40,650 nucleotides of DNA, taken from assembly GCA_019240635.1 (NCBI GenBank), contig JAFAYA010000131.1:1-40650 (forward strand), read 5' to 3'. A program made the translations under genes and the position numbers. Under the pieces are notes generated by a model. The model was not told the origin of the DNA and made no database searches. It worked only from the letters and a program-made list of their open reading frames with translations. This DNA comes from Acidisphaera sp. Its GTDB lineage: Bacteria > Pseudomonadota > Alphaproteobacteria > Acetobacterales > Acetobacteraceae. Of this stretch, positions 1,388-39,739 are shown piece by piece. Within the stretch, counting starts at the first letter, position 1. Each line of letters starts with the position of its first letter.

Positions 1388-2602
1388 ATGGACCGCACGC
1401 ACCACCACGCCGGCCGCCATTTCCTGCAAATCCCCGGCCCAACCAACGTGCCGGACCGCGTGCTGCGCGCGATGGACAACCCGACCATGGACCATCGGGG
1501 CCCGGAATTCGGCCGACTCGGACGCGAGATCCTGACCAACATCCGCCAGATCTTTCGCACGACGGGCCCGGTCGTGATCTATCCCGGCTCCGGCACCGGC
1601 GCCTGGGAAGCGGCACTCGTCAACACCCTCTCCCCCGGCGACACCGTGCTGATGTGCCGCACCGGCTGGTTCGCGTCCCTGTGGAAGGAGATGGCCGAGC
1701 GCCTGCAGCTCGCCCCCGTGTTCATCGACACGGACTGGCGCGTCGGCGCCGATGTCGACGCGATCGGCGCGGCGCTGGCCGAGGACCGCACGCACAAGAT
1801 CAAGGCGGTCTGCGTCGTTCATAACGAGACCTCCACCGGCTGCACCAGCCGCATCGAGGAGGTGCGGCGCGCCATGGACGCCGCCCGCCATCCGGCGCTG
1901 CTGCTGGTCGACACCATCTCTTCGCTCGCCAGCATCGAGTACAGGCATGACGAATGGGGGGTGGACGTCACCGTCGCCGGGTCGCAGAAAGGCTTGATGC
2001 TGCCGCCCGGACTTTCGTTCAACGCGATCAGCGACAAGGCCCTCGCTGCCTCGGAACACGCGCGCCTGCCGCGCAGCTACTGGGACTGGCAGCCGATGCT
2101 GGCCGCCAACGAGACCGGCTATTTCCCGTACACGCCCGGCACCAACCTGCTGTATGGCCTTGATACGGCAGTAAAGATGCTGCTGGAGGAGGGCCTCGCC
2201 AACGTCTTCGCCCGGCACGACCGCCACGCCGAGGCGACGCGGCGCGCGGTTCGCGCCTGGGGGCTGGAGACCCAGTGCCGGGAGCCCCGCCACTACTCCT
2301 CAAGCCTCACCGCGGTGCGGCTGCCGGAGGGCCACAGCGCCGACGCACTGCGCGCCGTCATCCTCGAGCGCTACAACATGAGCCTCGGCAACGGGCTGGG
2401 CATCCTGAAGGACCGGGTGTTCCGCATCGGCCATCTCGGCGATTTCGGCGACCTGCAGCTCATCGGCACGCTCGGCGGCGTGGAGATGGGGCTGTGCGTC
2501 GCCGGCGTGCCGCACCGGCCCGGCGGCGTTCAGGCCGCCCTCGATTTCCTCGCCGGCAACGCCCGGGCACCCTCCGCCCCAGCAACGGGAAGCATTCCAT
2601 GA
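1388..2602 (+). CDS. Class V PLP aminotransferase (serine/alanine--glyoxylate aminotransferase family)
   Basis: The 404-aa protein resembles the serine-glyoxylate / alanine-glyoxylate aminotransferases, which move an amino group onto glyoxylate to give glycine. The N-terminal IPGPTNVP motif near residue 15, the YPGSGTGAWEA segment, VHNETSTG (substrate/PLP pocket), the DTISSLAS Asp region and the Schiff-base lysine in GSQKGLMLPPGL (K201) all fit the family, and the length is typical. The ATG at 1388 follows GGGAGA by about 8 nt; the frame is open back to 1334, but those extra residues do not look family-like. Its stop overlaps the start of the glutathione-transferase gene (ATGA), indicating translational coupling. 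The substrate could be serine or alanine; the serine form in methylotrophs serves C1 assimilation, but no other serine-cycle gene is present here. Confidence 0.9.
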   Translation: MDRTHHHAGRHFLQIPGPTNVPDRVLRAMDNPTMDHRGPEFGRLGREILTNIRQIFRTTGPVVIYPGSGTGAWEAALVNTLSPGDTVLMCRTGWFASLWKEMAERLQLAPVFIDTDWRVGADVDAIGAALAEDRTHKIKAVCVVHNETSTGCTSRIEEVRRAMDAARHPALLLVDTISSLASIEYRHDEWGVDVTVAGSQKGLMLPPGLSFNAISDKALAASEHARLPRSYWDWQPMLAANETGYFPYTPGTNLLYGLDTAVKMLLEEGLANVFARHDRHAEATRRAVRAWGLETQCREPRHYSSSLTAVRLPEGHSADALRAVILERYNMSLGNGLGILKDRVFRIGHLGDFGDLQLIGTLGGVEMGLCVAGVPHRPGGVQAALDFLAGNARAPSAPATGSIP

Positions 2603-3297
2603 TCGAAGTCTGGAGCTGGCCGACACCGAACGGTCACAAGGTCCACATCGCGCTCGAAGAGCTCGGCCTTCCCTATCGTGTCATTCCCGTGAATATCGGC
2701 GCCGGCGACCAGTTCAAGCCGGAATTTCTCGCGATCACGCCGAACCACCGCATCCCCGCGATCGTCGACGAGGATGGCCCAGGCGGCGGGCGGCTCACGC
2801 TTTTCGAGTCCGGCGCCATCCTGATCTATCTTTCCGAGAAGACCGGCGGCCGGCTGATCCCCGCGGCGCCGGCGCAGCGCTACGCCTGCCTGCAATGGCT
2901 GATGTTCCAGATGGGCAGCGTCGGCCCGATGTTCGGGCAATACAACCACTTCGCCAACTACGCCGCCGAGAAGCTGACCTACCCGGTCGAGCGATACACC
3001 AACGAAGTCAGGCGTCTGCACCGCGTCCTGGACAAGCGACTGTCGCAGAGCGAGTACCTGGCCGGCTCCGAATACTCGATCGCCGACATCGCGACGTTTC
3101 CCTGGGTGCGAAATCCGGACCGGCGCGGCATCGATCTCGCGGAGTATCCGTCGTTGCGCCGCTGGCACGACGCGATCGCTGCCCGGCCGGCGGTGCAAAG
3201 GGGTGTCGCGGTGCTCGCCGACCGCCAGCGCCAGGGCCCGATGACGGACGCAGAGCGCGAGAACATGTTCGGTGCGACGCAATTCGCCGCGCGCTAG
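2599..3297 (+). CDS. yfcG: Glutathione S-transferase, YfcG/YghU-like disulfide-bond oxidoreductase
   Basis: The 232-aa protein has an N-terminal thioredoxin-like GST domain (about residues 1-88) beginning with the TPNGHKV motif of the YfcG/YghU (Nu) class. The PAIVDEDG and LFESGAIL segments bind the glutathione gamma-glutamyl part in this fold. An all-helical C-terminal domain follows, with the N-capping/hydrophobic-staple region YSIADIATFPW. Length and motif order match E. coli YfcG closely. Enzymes of this class have disulfide reductase and peroxidase activity and hold GSSG or two GSH rather than activating one thiol. The start ATG overlaps the aminotransferase stop by 4 bp (ATGA), so the pair is coupled, although no shared pathway is obvious. 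A palindromic repeat lies downstream. Confidence 0.9.
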   Translation: MIEVWSWPTPNGHKVHIALEELGLPYRVIPVNIGAGDQFKPEFLAITPNHRIPAIVDEDGPGGGRLTLFESGAILIYLSEKTGGRLIPAAPAQRYACLQWLMFQMGSVGPMFGQYNHFANYAAEKLTYPVERYTNEVRRLHRVLDKRLSQSEYLAGSEYSIADIATFPWVRNPDRRGIDLAEYPSLRRWHDAIAARPAVQRGVAVLADRQRQGPMTDAERENMFGATQFAAR

Positions 3298-3588: not shown

Positions 3589-4959
3589 ATGCTGACGGAC
3601 ACGATGGCTGCACGCGTTCTCATTGTCGGTGCTGCCGGCTCGGGCAACTGCCTCTTGCAGGAAGGTCTTGCCGCCGATCACTTCGAGGTTGCCGGCGCGC
3701 GGGACGAGCAGACCGCGGTGCGGCTCGCGCATTCCTGGAAGCCGGATCTGATCGTGCTCAACGCCGTGCTGCCAGGCACCGAGCCGTACGAGACGTGTCG
3801 CCGGCTGAAGCATGATCCGCGCACGCTGCACATACCGGTCGCGCTGATCACGCGCCACGCCGAAGCCTTGCAGCGGCTGGATGAATTGCAGAGCAGCCCT
3901 GACGATTTCCTGAGCAGTCCGGTCGAGCACACCCAGCTCCTTGCGCGCGTGCGCAACATGGTGCGGCTGAAGCGCACGCTCGATGAGTGGCGTGATCGCG
4001 CGCCCGACGCACGCGGATCGGGCGACGGCGATACCTCGGTGTCCGGCGCCCGCGCCGTGATCATCGATCCATCCGACGCGGCATGCGCGATGGTGCGGCG
4101 CGCGCTCGCTCAGGATGGGATCGAGGTCAGCCGGGCCGCGAGCGCGACGGATGTCTTGACGCAAAGCGAAGCCGACCCGGCCGACCTTGTGGTGATCGGC
4201 CTGGCGGCGGGCCCCGCCGATCCGCTGGCCTTGCCGGCACGCCTGCGCGCGACGCCGGCGACGCGCGCCATTCCGATGCTTCTCGTCGCCGATCCCGACC
4301 ACCGCAGCCGGATCCTGCGCGGCTTCGATCTGGGCGCCAACGACTGGCTGCTGCGACCGGTGGACGAGCAGGAGCTGCGCGTGCGTGCGCGCAATCAGAT
4401 CCGCCGCAAGTTCGATCAGGATCGCTGGCGCGCCGATCTCGGCGAGGCGGTCGAGCTCGCGCTCACCGATCCGCTGACCGGCCTCTACAATCGACGCTAT
4501 CTGCTGCGCCACCTTCGGCGTCTGCTCGGCTCATCGCACGCCCACGAAGTCGCCGTCCTGATGGTCGATATCGATCATTTCAAGGCGATCAACGACCGGT
4601 TCGGCCATGCTGCCGGCGACGAGGCGCTGCGGCTCGTCGCCGGCACGCTGCGCCGGCGCACGCGGGTTTTCGATTCGGTCGCCCGCGTCGGCGGCGAAGA
4701 GTTCGTGGTCGTCATGCCGGGCGCTTCGCCCAGCGACGCGCGGGCAGCGGCAGAACGGCTGCGGCTGGCGATCGAGGCGATCCCGTTCCACCCGGCGCCG
4801 CCGGTGCGCCACCGCCTCACGGTAAGCATCGGCGTCGCCGCGACTGGGCTGGCGGCCTGTGCGGGGAACGCGGAAGTGCTCATCCGCCACGCTGACCGCG
4901 CCCTCTATGCCGCGAAGGATGCCGGTCGCAACCGTGTGGAGTTCGCGCAGGCTGCGTGA
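3589..4959 (+). CDS. pleD: PleD-like diguanylate cyclase with degenerate receiver domains
   Basis: The 456-aa protein has the PleD layout: receiver (about 8-125), receiver-like adaptor (about 150-270) and GGDEF domain (about 290-456). The catalytic motif is GGEEF at 368-372. An RxxD product-inhibition site (RVFD, 359-362) lies five residues upstream, as in Caulobacter PleD. Line-by-line similarity to PleD is evident, for example in LTDPLTGLYNRRY and VDIDHFKAIND. The first receiver lacks phosphorylation residues: the acceptor Asp is Asn58, the acidic pair near residue 14 is Gly-Ala-Ala, and the conserved Lys is replaced in SSPVE. The adaptor is also non-canonical, as in PleD. ATG 3589 is chosen because it aligns with PleD; ATG 3604 is possible. 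rpmG lies immediately downstream and convergent, a neighbourhood typical of alphaproteobacterial pleD, but divK is not upstream. It should make c-di-GMP from two GTP. Confidence 0.88.
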   Translation: MLTDTMAARVLIVGAAGSGNCLLQEGLAADHFEVAGARDEQTAVRLAHSWKPDLIVLNAVLPGTEPYETCRRLKHDPRTLHIPVALITRHAEALQRLDELQSSPDDFLSSPVEHTQLLARVRNMVRLKRTLDEWRDRAPDARGSGDGDTSVSGARAVIIDPSDAACAMVRRALAQDGIEVSRAASATDVLTQSEADPADLVVIGLAAGPADPLALPARLRATPATRAIPMLLVADPDHRSRILRGFDLGANDWLLRPVDEQELRVRARNQIRRKFDQDRWRADLGEAVELALTDPLTGLYNRRYLLRHLRRLLGSSHAHEVAVLMVDIDHFKAINDRFGHAAGDEALRLVAGTLRRRTRVFDSVARVGGEEFVVVMPGASPSDARAAAERLRLAIEAIPFHPAPPVRHRLTVSIGVAATGLAACAGNAEVLIRHADRALYAAKDAGRNRVEFAQAA

Positions 4960-5009: not shown

Positions 5010-5177
5010 CTACTTGATCTTGGATTCCCTGAACGCGACGTGCTTGCGCGCGACCGGGTCGTATTTCTTGAACTCGAGCTTGCCGGTCTGGCTGCGCGCG
5101 TTCTTCTTGGTCACGTAGAAGTAGCCGGTGTCGGCGGACGACACGAGCTTGATCTGCACGGTGTTGGTCTTGGCCAT
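5010..5177 (-). CDS. rpmG: 50S ribosomal protein L33
   Basis: The translation is a 55-aa basic protein beginning [18 protein letters not shown], with the FYVTKKN and [15 protein letters not shown] segments of L33, a small protein near the E site of the large ribosomal subunit. This form has no CxxC zinc pairs, so it is the zinc-independent type found in many proteobacteria. Length is normal for the family. It ends 50 bp from the convergent PleD-like gene. Upstream lie a 15-bp tandem repeat and the S41 protease gene on the same strand, so it may be the last gene of the long minus-strand operon or may have its own promoter in the repeat-containing spacer. Confidence 0.97.
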
Positions 5178-5220
5178 GGCGGGTCCCTCGATCGCCCGCG
5201 AAAATGCGCATCGCCGGCGC

Positions 5221-5290
5221 CCGGGTCAAGCCAGGCCCGGTCAGGCCAGGCCCGGTCAGGCCAAGCCCGGTCAGGCCAAGCCCGGTCAGG
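5221..5290. repeat. 15-bp tandem repeat, 4.7 copies
   Basis: Consecutive units start at 5221, 5236, 5251, 5266 and 5281 (last one partial), with consensus CCCGGTCAGGCCARG. Units 3 and 4 are identical, unit 2 differs by one base and unit 1 by a few more. The array fills the gap between the rpmG start and the 3' end of the S41 protease gene and includes that gene's TGA stop (5286-5288). The unit length is a multiple of three, so copy-number change could extend or alter the end of a reading frame without a frameshift. Confidence 0.9.
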
Positions 5291-36865: not shown

Positions 36866-39739
36866 TCAGGCGGCCGCGCTGACGTCCAGTCCCCTGCCGG
36901 TGCCGGAAACGCCGGGCCGCACGGCGGATAGCCAGGCCGCGTCCGCCGGCGCGGGGTGGGCGAACAGGTATCCCTGGCCGTAGCGGCAGCCGAGCTCCCT
37001 GAGCCGCAGCATCGTCTCGTGGTCCTCGATTCCTTCGGCGACGACCTCGATGCCGAGCGCCTGCCCGAGCCCGACGATGGCCGCTACGAAACGCGCACTC
37101 GCCGGATCGCTCAGCAGCGCCGCGGCGAAGCATGGACCGATCTTCAGCCAGTCCACGCGCAGCTCGCGGAGATGCTGGAGGCTGGCGTGGCCGGTTCCGA
37201 AATCGTCGAGCGCCACGCGGATGCCGAGGTCGCGCAGCTCTGCGAGCACCTGGCGCGCGCCCGCGGAATCGCCGGCCAGCACGGTCTCGGTGATCTCCAG
37301 CTCGAGCCGCCGCGGGTCGAAGCCGGCGTCGGCGAGCCGGCTGCGCAGCTCGGCCGGCAGCGCCGGGTCCTGCAGCTGCGCCGGCGAGAGATTGACGGCG
37401 AGGGTCAGATCGTCGGGCCAGGCGCGCGCGTCGGCGCAGGCGCGCGACAGGATGGCGCCGAACAGCTCGCGGCACAGGCCGCGTTCCTCGGCGATCGGCA
37501 CGAACTGCAGCGGAAGCAGGGTGCCGAGCACCGGGTGCTCCCAGCGCGCCAGCGCCTCCATGCCGACGATCGCGCCATCGGCGAGTCGGATGCACGGCTG
37601 GTAGTACGGCACGATCTCGCCGCCGGCGATGGCATGGCGGATTTCGCGCTGCAGCTCGGCGTGCTCCTTCAGCTCCCCCTCCATCGGCCGCTCGAAGAAG
37701 CAGAAGCGGCCGCGGCCACCGCGCTTGGCCTGGTACATCGCGATGTCGGCCGTGCGCAGCATCGCCGCGGTGTCCGCCCCGTCCTGCGGGCTGAGCGAGA
37801 TGCCGACGCTGGCGCCGATCTCCACCAGCACGCTGTCGACGACGATCGGCGCGGCGAGCGCGTCGACGATACGCTGACCGGCATAGGCCACCCCGGCGCG
37901 TCCGTCGGCCAGCGGGAGCAGCACGGCGAACTCATCCCCGCCCAGCCGCGCCACGAGCGCGCTCTCCTCGACCGCGCCCTGCAGCCGGCGCGCGACCTCA
38001 GCCAGGATCATGTCGCCGACGGCGTGGCCGTGCAGGTCGTTGACCGGCTTGAAGCGGTCGAGGTCGATGAACAGCACGGCGAAGCCGATCGCCTCGCCCG
38101 GCGCCTCGAAGCGCCGGGCGACCGCATCGAGGAAGAAGCGGCGGTTCGGCAGGCCGGTCAGCACGTCACTCATGGCAAGGCGCTCGAGCCGGCGCCGCGC
38201 CTCCTCGAGCTGCTCCTCCGCGCGCTTGCGGCGCTGCACGTCGCGCAGCACCACGATCATGCCGCCGTCCTCCGGCATGTAGCGGTAGCGGGCCTCGATC
38301 CAAATATAGCCGCCGTCGCGGTGACGCATGCGCCAGGTCGCGCCGCTGATCGGGTTGGCCGGACCGAGCGCGTCGAACACCTCGAGCACCGCCGGCAGGT
38401 CGTCGGGATGTACCAGCGCGAAGGCGTCGCCGCCCAGCAGCTCCTCGGGCGAGTAGCCGAGCACCTCGCGGCTGGACGGCGAGACATAGACGCGCGCCCG
38501 CGCCGCATCCAGCCGGACGATGACGTCGGTCGCGTTCTCGGTCAGGATGCGATGCAGGCGCTCGCTTCTGGCCTGCTCCTCGCGCGCCGCGGCGAGATCG
38601 GCCTGGTGCGCGTGCAGTTCCGCGGCAAGCTCGTTGAAGGTCGTGCCGAGCGCCCGCAGTTCCGCCGGCGAGGCGTCCGGCACCGCGACCCTGGCGGCGA
38701 GGTCGTGGCGACCGAGCCGCCGCGCCGCCTCGGTCAGCCGGCGCAGCGGCAGCAGCAGCGTGCGCTCGGCGAGCAGGCGGAAGAAGACGAAGGCGGCCAG
38801 CGTCGCCAGCACGGCGACCGCCACCGAGAGCAGCATCATGCGGTCGGCGTCGGCCACCACGGCGGCACTCGGCACGCCGACCGCGATCACCGCGTCGTGC
38901 CCGGCGAGCGCGAGCGGCGCCATGCCGTAGATGCGCGCGACGCCGTCGTCGCAGGTCTGCAGCGCGACCCGCGGCAGACCGCCCGCCGCCGGTGCGGCGC
39001 ACCGGCCGAGGAAGGCGCCGGCGGAGCGGGCGAGGACCTCGCCGCTCGCGGCGTCGATCAGCGCCGCGACGCTGCCGGCGACCCCGGCGCGCTGCGCCAG
39101 TTCGCCGAGCCAGGCGAGGTCGACATCGGCGGCGATCATGCCGGCGGGCGGCCCGTCCGCGGTGTCGCCCGGCACCGGCATCGCCACGACGAGCATCGGC
39201 TTGCCGGTGCGCCGGCTGTTCAGCGGGCCGCTGATGACGACCGGCGGGCGGTCCGGCCCCATGACGCGCTGAAAGTACACGCGGTCGCCGATCACCATGC
39301 GCGACTGCTCCTCGGCACTGTTGCAAGCGATGTGCCCATCCGGTGCGGCGACGAACAGCGCTTTCAGCGGCCGGTCGTCGCCGGCGTAGCGGCTGAGCAG
39401 CGGGTGGCAGGCCGGGCCCATTCCGCTCACGTCAGGCATCCGGCCGAGCAGGCTCATCACCGCCTGCGCCCGGGAGAGCAGCAGGCCCTGCTGGTCCATG
39501 CCGGCGCGGGCGAGCTGCACGACCCGGTCGCGGGCGTCGTCCTGCAATTCCCGCCGGTGCGCCAGGCCGCTGTTGAGCAGCAGGAAGACGAACGGGGCGA
39601 CGGCCAGCATGAACAGCAGGGAAAGATTGACTCCGGCGCCGGGCGCCGCGCGCCGGGACCGGACCGGTGAGCGGCTCAATTCGGGCTCCCTCGTTGCCGT
39701 GCGGGTCGGCCGGATGGCGACGCCGCCGACATAAGCCAT
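36866..39739 (-). CDS. Membrane sensor with HAMP-PAS-GGDEF-EAL, c-di-GMP turnover
   Basis: The 957-aa protein has a first membrane segment (about 36-58), a periplasmic sensor region that looks CHASE/dCache-like, a second segment (about 310-330, MLLSVAVAVLATLAAFVFF), HAMP, PAS (VYVSPSSREVLGYSPEEL to IWIEARYRYM), GGDEF and EAL. GGDEF is intact at 600-604 but lacks an upstream RxxD inhibition site (residues there read EESA). EAL is at 728-730, with the NLSPAQL Asn, ITETVL Glu, DDFGTG Asp pair and Lys866 present. The Asp expected two residues after that Lys is Gly868 (LKIGPCF), so phosphodiesterase activity may be weak. ATG 39739 follows GAGG by 6 nt. It is divergent from the RraA-family gene. 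Confidence 0.93.
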   Translation of the reverse strand: MAYVGGVAIRPTRTATREPELSRSPVRSRRAAPGAGVNLSLLFMLAVAPFVFLLLNSGLAHRRELQDDARDRVVQLARAGMDQQGLLLSRAQAVMSLLGRMPDVSGMGPACHPLLSRYAGDDRPLKALFVAAPDGHIACNSAEEQSRMVIGDRVYFQRVMGPDRPPVVISGPLNSRRTGKPMLVVAMPVPGDTADGPPAGMIAADVDLAWLGELAQRAGVAGSVAALIDAASGEVLARSAGAFLGRCAAPAAGGLPRVALQTCDDGVARIYGMAPLALAGHDAVIAVGVPSAAVVADADRMMLLSVAVAVLATLAAFVFFRLLAERTLLLPLRRLTEAARRLGRHDLAARVAVPDASPAELRALGTTFNELAAELHAHQADLAAAREEQARSERLHRILTENATDVIVRLDAARARVYVSPSSREVLGYSPEELLGGDAFALVHPDDLPAVLEVFDALGPANPISGATWRMRHRDGGYIWIEARYRYMPEDGGMIVVLRDVQRRKRAEEQLEEARRRLERLAMSDVLTGLPNRRFFLDAVARRFEAPGEAIGFAVLFIDLDRFKPVNDLHGHAVGDMILAEVARRLQGAVEESALVARLGGDEFAVLLPLADGRAGVAYAGQRIVDALAAPIVVDSVLVEIGASVGISLSPQDGADTAAMLRTADIAMYQAKRGGRGRFCFFERPMEGELKEHAELQREIRHAIAGGEIVPYYQPCIRLADGAIVGMEALARWEHPVLGTLLPLQFVPIAEERGLCRELFGAILSRACADARAWPDDLTLAVNLSPAQLQDPALPAELRSRLADAGFDPRRLELEITETVLAGDSAGARQVLAELRDLGIRVALDDFGTGHASLQHLRELRVDWLKIGPCFAAALLSDPASARFVAAIVGLGQALGIEVVAEGIEDHETMLRLRELGCRYGQGYLFAHPAPADAAWLSAVRPGVSGTGRGLDVSAAA

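Follow-up and report, generated by a model that had tools for sequence, protein, structure and literature searches.

The PleD orthologue of an Acidisphaera genome has lost four of the five phosphorylation residues of its first receiver domain (REC1), while its cyclase half is conserved. The residues present support the view that REC1 is unable to act as an Asp-phosphorylated receiver. This bears out the original prediction of a PleD-like protein whose receiver cannot be phosphorylated, here a full-length PleD orthologue, and the loss of these residues beside a conserved cyclase half also supports its further claim that control of the enzyme must be different. We give about an even chance to one explanation: the protein would be a pseudo-receiver form of PleD that is no longer coupled to its kinase, with a cyclase that is under selection and probably active at a basal or constitutive level, limited by product feedback.

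The pleD gene and its first receiver

The gene lies in the window, by which we mean the whole stretch of 40,650 nucleotides that was analysed, and reads as one open frame (3589–4959, + strand) of 456 amino acids with no stop or frameshift. Pfam recognizes two Response_reg stretches and one GGDEF domain in the product, giving the REC-REC-GGDEF architecture of PleD, and among PDB entries its sequence is matched best by Caulobacter PleD (residues 6–450, 297 bits). Because the PleD alignment begins at Met6, the true start is probably at 3604. The features of the gene and its neighbours are as follows:

2599–3297, + strand: glutathione S-transferase (GST) gene, upstream neighbour that marks the pleD site in relatives (start read from translation)
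3589–4959, + strand: pleD orthologue, REC1-REC2-GGDEF (open frame, Pfam, NCBIfam, PDB sequence match)
3604–3996, + strand: REC1, degenerate receiver, residues 6–136 (alignment; Pfam Response_reg alone, 45.5 bits)
4051–4422, + strand: REC2, residues 155–278, without an acceptor Asp (alignment, Pfam)
4444–4944, + strand: GGDEF domain, residues 286–452 (Pfam; 0 of 44 family-invariant sites changed)
4663–4674, + strand: RVFD, residues 359–362, primary c-di-GMP inhibition site RxxD (alignment; role from PMC2270323)
4690–4704, + strand: GGEEF, residues 368–372, cyclase signature (alignment)
5010–5177, − strand: rpmG (L33), converging neighbour, not part of the system (read from sequence)

Aligned with PleD and its orthologues, the phosphorylation quintet (DD, D, T, K in a phosphorylatable REC1) has Gly14 and Ala15 for the Asp-Asp acidic pair, Asn58 for the acceptor Asp and Ser110 for the Lys; Thr88 is kept. 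These are the substitutions that had been predicted, and the GGEEF active site and the RVFD I-site are intact, again as predicted. The altered codons (GGT for Gly14, GCT for Ala15, AAC for Asn58 and AGT for Ser110) represent several separate changes and therefore not one sequencing error. Codon-position GC of REC1 differs little from the values in the rest of the gene's domains. REC1 is still recognized by Pfam Response_reg, at 45.5 bits against a cut-off of 30.2, and judged by its residues it is a pseudo-receiver under the definition in section 5 of PMC12632262. The REC2 acceptor Asp is also missing in most family orthologues. At a further REC1 position, Tyr31 (PleD Tyr26), the window protein has His where 99 of the 100 family rows have Tyr. 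In PleD, Tyr26 presumably sits in the dimer contact.

The NCBIfam PleD equivalog NF007135 was the top model for the window protein, although at 387.4 bits the score fell under the cut-off of 474; four canonical proteins (three of the window's family and L107) scored 513–604 bits. PleD is one among several cyclases of this genome, in which we counted nine GGDEF matches in eight proteins and eight EAL domains. In two of the other GGDEF proteins we saw PAS inputs together with Cache-like regions, one of the latter scoring under its Pfam cut-off.

The AlphaFold model of the window protein had a mean pLDDT of 82.1 and a pTM of 0.61, compared with 87.8 and 0.66 for the canonical control L107. Against activated PleD (2wb4), the best match for both models, the window model aligned over 437 residues (Z 37.3, rmsd 14.4), and against 1w25 over 438 (Z 31.4, rmsd 14.5); the control aligned with 2wb4 over 439 residues (Z 40.0, rmsd 16.8) and reached Z 33.6 with 1w25. 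In these models the fold appears to be kept, and the large rmsd presumably reflects different domain placement. We do not take the AlphaFold ranking as a sign that the domains are arranged in a constitutively active way, since the canonical control ranks alike. PDB entries 9g85 and 9g86 are structures of PleD together with c-di-GMP and (p)ppGpp, a possible input that would not depend on phosphorylation.

Divergence of the three domains

Orthologues of the window's own family were gathered from two genome searches, the first at E ≤ 1e-30 and the second at E ≤ 1e-120 to the window protein, a threshold that could miss more degenerate orthologues. Of the resulting 100 family rows, two are fragments of a single split gene. 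Position 58 was Asp in 99 of the 99 rows with a residue at that column, each acidic-pair residue was D in 98 of 98, and position 110 was K in 99 of 100, the sole R being a misplaced C-terminal fragment of the split gene. These counts answer in the negative the question, raised with the original prediction, of whether the loss is shared by Acetobacteraceae orthologues, and they rule out a lineage-wide loss of the acceptor. Canonical orthologues stand at the equivalent locus in genomes G332 and G124, with ~58% identity to the window protein. Searches of the genome collection found no close relative with the same REC1; a scan of named genomes gave no full-length match above 42% identity, and a plasmid search gave matches under 40% only. 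With Asp in all 99 rows, the acceptor loss looks private to the window's lineage.

Divergence was concentrated in REC1. At sites that were at least 95% invariant across 96 full-length family orthologues, the window protein was changed at 22 of 52 in REC1, 2 of 28 in REC2 and none of 44 in GGDEF; a smaller, earlier subset (n = 54) gave 23 of 53, 2 of 31 and 0 of 45. Leave-one-out means over relatives were 1.3% for REC1, 1.7% for REC2 and 1.0% for GGDEF, against 42% for the window REC1. The largest leave-one-out values, 9/53 in REC1 (L285) and 10/45 in GGDEF (L292), both belong to sequences that had been retrieved over a shorter match only. Below them the largest values were 3/53 and 4/45, and the REC2 maximum was 4/29. 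The REC1 pattern is far beyond chance.

Identities point the same way. REC1 is normally the best-conserved PleD domain, with a REC1/GGDEF identity ratio of 1.17–1.33 in 24 chosen relatives versus 0.80 in the window protein, whose REC1 has a mean identity to relatives of 49%. The corresponding REC2/GGDEF ratios were 0.98–1.24 and 0.88. Branch lengths were measured on a tree of 74 tips fixed from REC2 and GGDEF, a fast tree without support values. On this tree the terminal branch of the window protein measured 2.39 in REC1, where the other tips have a median of 0.24 and L066 alone is longer. The branch was 0.83 in REC2 (median 0.27) and 0.80 in GGDEF (median 0.51), so that REC2 is moderately faster too. 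Scaled by tree length, the REC1/GGDEF branch ratio was 3.87 for the window protein and 6.54 for L066, against a median of 0.73 across 66 tips. L029, with a canonical quintet, reached 2.94; a raised ratio alone is thus no proof of a lost acceptor. These alignments and trees show that REC1 evolved under a different regime and that GGDEF did not.

The original prediction had also held that canonical orthologues would indicate a sequencing error or local drift. The orthologues are indeed canonical, yet neither consequence is likely: the many concordant changes make a sequencing error very unlikely, and drift of the whole gene is unlikely because none of the 44 invariant GGDEF sites is changed. Drift confined to the receiver part could still have taken place.

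Within REC1, changed sites were denser in the four loops round the phosphorylation site (9 of 12, versus 14 of 41 elsewhere; Fisher p = 0.02), with the 53-site list of the n = 54 subset and with loops that we placed from the predicted secondary structure once the changed sites had been identified. Of 17 invariant sites around alpha4-beta5-alpha5, 11 were kept (among them R96, D105, D106, F107, R120, R126 and K128) and six were changed (E95, G99, G103, A104, T116 and L124). The residues of this face are thus mostly kept, and it is the face by which the two Rec domains of activated PleD pack against each other (PMC8041772). In the explanation that we prefer, the histidine-kinase input would have been abandoned and the cyclase would still be used. 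c-di-GMP would be made at a rate, basal or constitutive, that follows from the amount of protein, and binding of c-di-GMP at the intact RxxD site RVFD would cap output as the remaining brake. REC1 may then be kept as a folded scaffold against REC2. The change of Tyr31 to His counts against this explanation, as dimerization may be weakened rather than constitutive, and so do the six changed sites around alpha4-beta5-alpha5.

Alternatively, REC1 could have been remodelled into a surface for docking or for a ligand, with a protein or small molecule switching the cyclase without phosphorylation. We hold this to be possible but the less probable course, at perhaps one chance in a few. It would account for a REC1 core that is kept and recognized by Pfam although 22 of 52 invariant sites are changed, and regulation of pseudo-receivers via protein-protein interaction is treated in PMC12632262. 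Thr88 and Phe107, the Y-T coupling pair, are both kept in the window REC1, as in 47% of pseudo-receivers according to section 7 of that review. However, we found no close relative with a like REC1 that would show a new surface to be conserved, and the neighbours of the gene equal those in G124, which has a canonical REC1, so that the locus offers no new partner.

Acceptor loss in a second family and comparison with known systems

Among loci of other families, the acceptor Asp was present in 19 of 20; the exception was L066 of genome G093. In the family of G093, 123 of 149 genomes matched its PleD-like protein at E ≤ 1e-60, and 70 of these were read (loci L191–L260), comprising the 30 best, including G093 itself, and 40 chosen down the list. 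Of these, 34 have the acceptor Asp and 36 lack it. In GGEEF, Glu stands in fourth place in all 70 and in third place in 69, the remaining one having Asp there; the I-site Arg was found in 61. These proteins resemble the window protein in the lost acceptor and the kept GGEEF, and differ in that theirs is a separate loss and in keeping the first Asp of the acidic pair (66 of 70).

A fast tree, without support values and with the G093 family not monophyletic as rooted, placed the losses of this family in four clades of 31, 3 (including Loktanella, L116), 2 and 1 tips, the largest of which spans 31 genera. With the window protein added there were five loss clades among 78 tips, compared with a mean of 30.1 and a minimum of 23 in 200 label shuffles. 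Such few clades suggest that acceptor loss in the family of G093 is old and inherited, with the cyclase retained. REC1 identity was 43.2% among Asp-less and 44.7% among intact members, and by this measure REC1 is not collapsed as a rule; G093 itself (L066) has the longest REC1 branch in the 74-tip tree. The family is probably Rhodobacteraceae, because of the tree position of L115 and L116. L116 scored 363.5 bits on the PleD equivalog, under the cut-off, and we call the proteins of this family PleD-like rather than strict orthologues.

Taking the two occurrences together, we lean slightly towards the view that PleD-type cyclases have repeatedly been uncoupled from their kinase, once here and in a long-lived form in about half of the sampled G093-family proteins, and that this textbook cyclase may often be constitutive or partner-controlled.

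Caulobacter PleD shares with the window protein its domain order, length, pseudo REC2, GGEEF and RxxD. Unlike it, the window protein has a REC1 without acceptor Asp, acidic pair and Lys, has Tyr26 replaced, and is encoded without an adjacent divK. The pseudo-receiver cases named in section 18 of a 2025 review of such domains are mostly DNA-binding regulators, unlike the window protein. The common ground is a REC fold without phosphorylation residues (PMC12632262); the review describes PleD as a receiver followed by a pseudo-receiver, its second domain, and a cyclase. The Wolbachia wOo PleD (PMC4426382) has an Asp-to-Asn change in its N-terminal REC and keeps GGDEF and I-site, but there stops and a frameshift break up the gene, whereas the window gene is intact. 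WspR is likewise a REC-GGDEF cyclase, for which PMC2270323 proposes phosphorylation-independent regulation through product binding; in contrast to the window protein, WspR appears to be phosphorylation-regulated as well.

Pseudo-receivers are already known, and so is the replacement of Asp by Asn in the first receiver of a PleD, in the broken Wolbachia gene (PMC4426382). We found no description of an Asp-less PleD in the window's or G093's family in the open-access literature, covered mostly as titles and abstracts. Apparently undescribed in the literature searched is an intact PleD that combines a dead REC1 with a fully conserved cyclase, has canonical counterparts at its locus in relatives, and finds a parallel elsewhere in a clade of 31 genera. 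PleD is among the best-understood receiver-controlled cyclases, and a natural version with a dead REC1 makes pseudo-receiver switching, a mechanism called a mystery in the 2025 review (PMC12632262), directly testable; the same-locus canonical orthologues of G332 and G124 serve as controls. Our results suggest that a PleD annotation should not be taken to mean 'kinase-controlled' without a check of REC1.

Locus, divK and the sister genome

The window pleD lies between the GST gene and rpmG/S41 protease, as in canonical G124 (L105), which marks it as the orthologue at this locus. The order is the same in G332 (L104), with ~1.75 kb extra between pleD and GST, and the arrangement around pleD is different in G011 (L106).

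It had been pointed out that divK, the usual upstream partner, is absent here while rpmG remains. divK is indeed not adjacent, but its absence has no value as a clue: a DivK-like gene stood beside pleD at none of the 57 loci of the window's family (window included), versus 18 of 20 loci of other families, in counts for which some flanks end at contig ends and whose DivK profile drew on 14 of those 18 genes. None was found in the flanks of the 30 G093-family loci checked, with or without the acceptor. A genome-wide search, proposed with the original prediction, gave no DivK orthologue in any of nine family genomes (nothing above 94.6 bits, and 78.0 bits in the window genome); the control, DivK of G110, which is itself in the profile, scored 234.6 bits. 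A missing divK was rejected as an explanation, as the absence is family-wide. DivJ-PleC-DivK is missing in part of Rhodospirillales and part of Rhodobacterales, according to PMC2877005. Because relatives without DivK keep the whole quintet, another kinase presumably serves them. ChpT-like proteins were found in both genus members.

The single other genome of the window's genus that we compared, G001 (97% complete), has no pleD at the syntenic site, where rpmG and GST are 269 bp apart (L103:5516-5784). The gap gave only chance-level matches to pleD (best tblastn E 0.076), and no full-length PleD was found elsewhere in G001, the widest other match covering residues 154–449 at 34%. Within the genus, then, one species is without pleD, and in the other the gene is retained but its REC1 is ruined. 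The function may be dispensable, a point against the explanation we prefer. The second intact PleD that was to be looked for was not found in the window genome either, in an assembly that is 72.1% complete, with 28% missing.

The sister genome is an argument for a different reading, which we regard as unlikely, a little more so than partner control: the PleD pathway would be being dismantled in the genus, with REC1 eroded after kinase loss, dimerization gone and deletion ahead as in G001, where the 269 bp left hold no clear remnant. The loss of Tyr31 would fit, as would pleD genes split into two frames by a stop or frameshift in G005 (L064, same family) and G082 (L041, another family), though either decay or assembly error may have split these. 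Against decay, the window pleD has no stop or frameshift, and none of the 44 invariant GGDEF sites has changed while REC1 diverged so far.

Two of the flanking proteins are clearly nearest those of G001, the S41 protease (70%, versus 59–61% in G332 and G124) and GST (80% versus 74%). TopA is slightly closer to G001, and the aminotransferase and RNase R are equally close to G001 and to the other relatives. The contig therefore fits this genus. An artefact (sequencing error, chimera or mis-binned contig) is very improbable even in a draft assembly of 134 contigs and 72.1% completeness, given more than 20 substitutions at invariant sites without a frameshift and an S41 protease and GST that clearly side with the same-genus genome.

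Elsewhere in the window, two small frames upstream of the aminotransferase gene (961–1272 and 40–951) had no Pfam match. Near the opposite end, a GGDEF-EAL protein is encoded at 36953–38176 (− strand), inside a frame of 1050 amino acids. A 15-bp tandem repeat of 4.7 copies occupies positions 5219–5290, in the stretch that separates rpmG from the end of the gene for the S41 protease.
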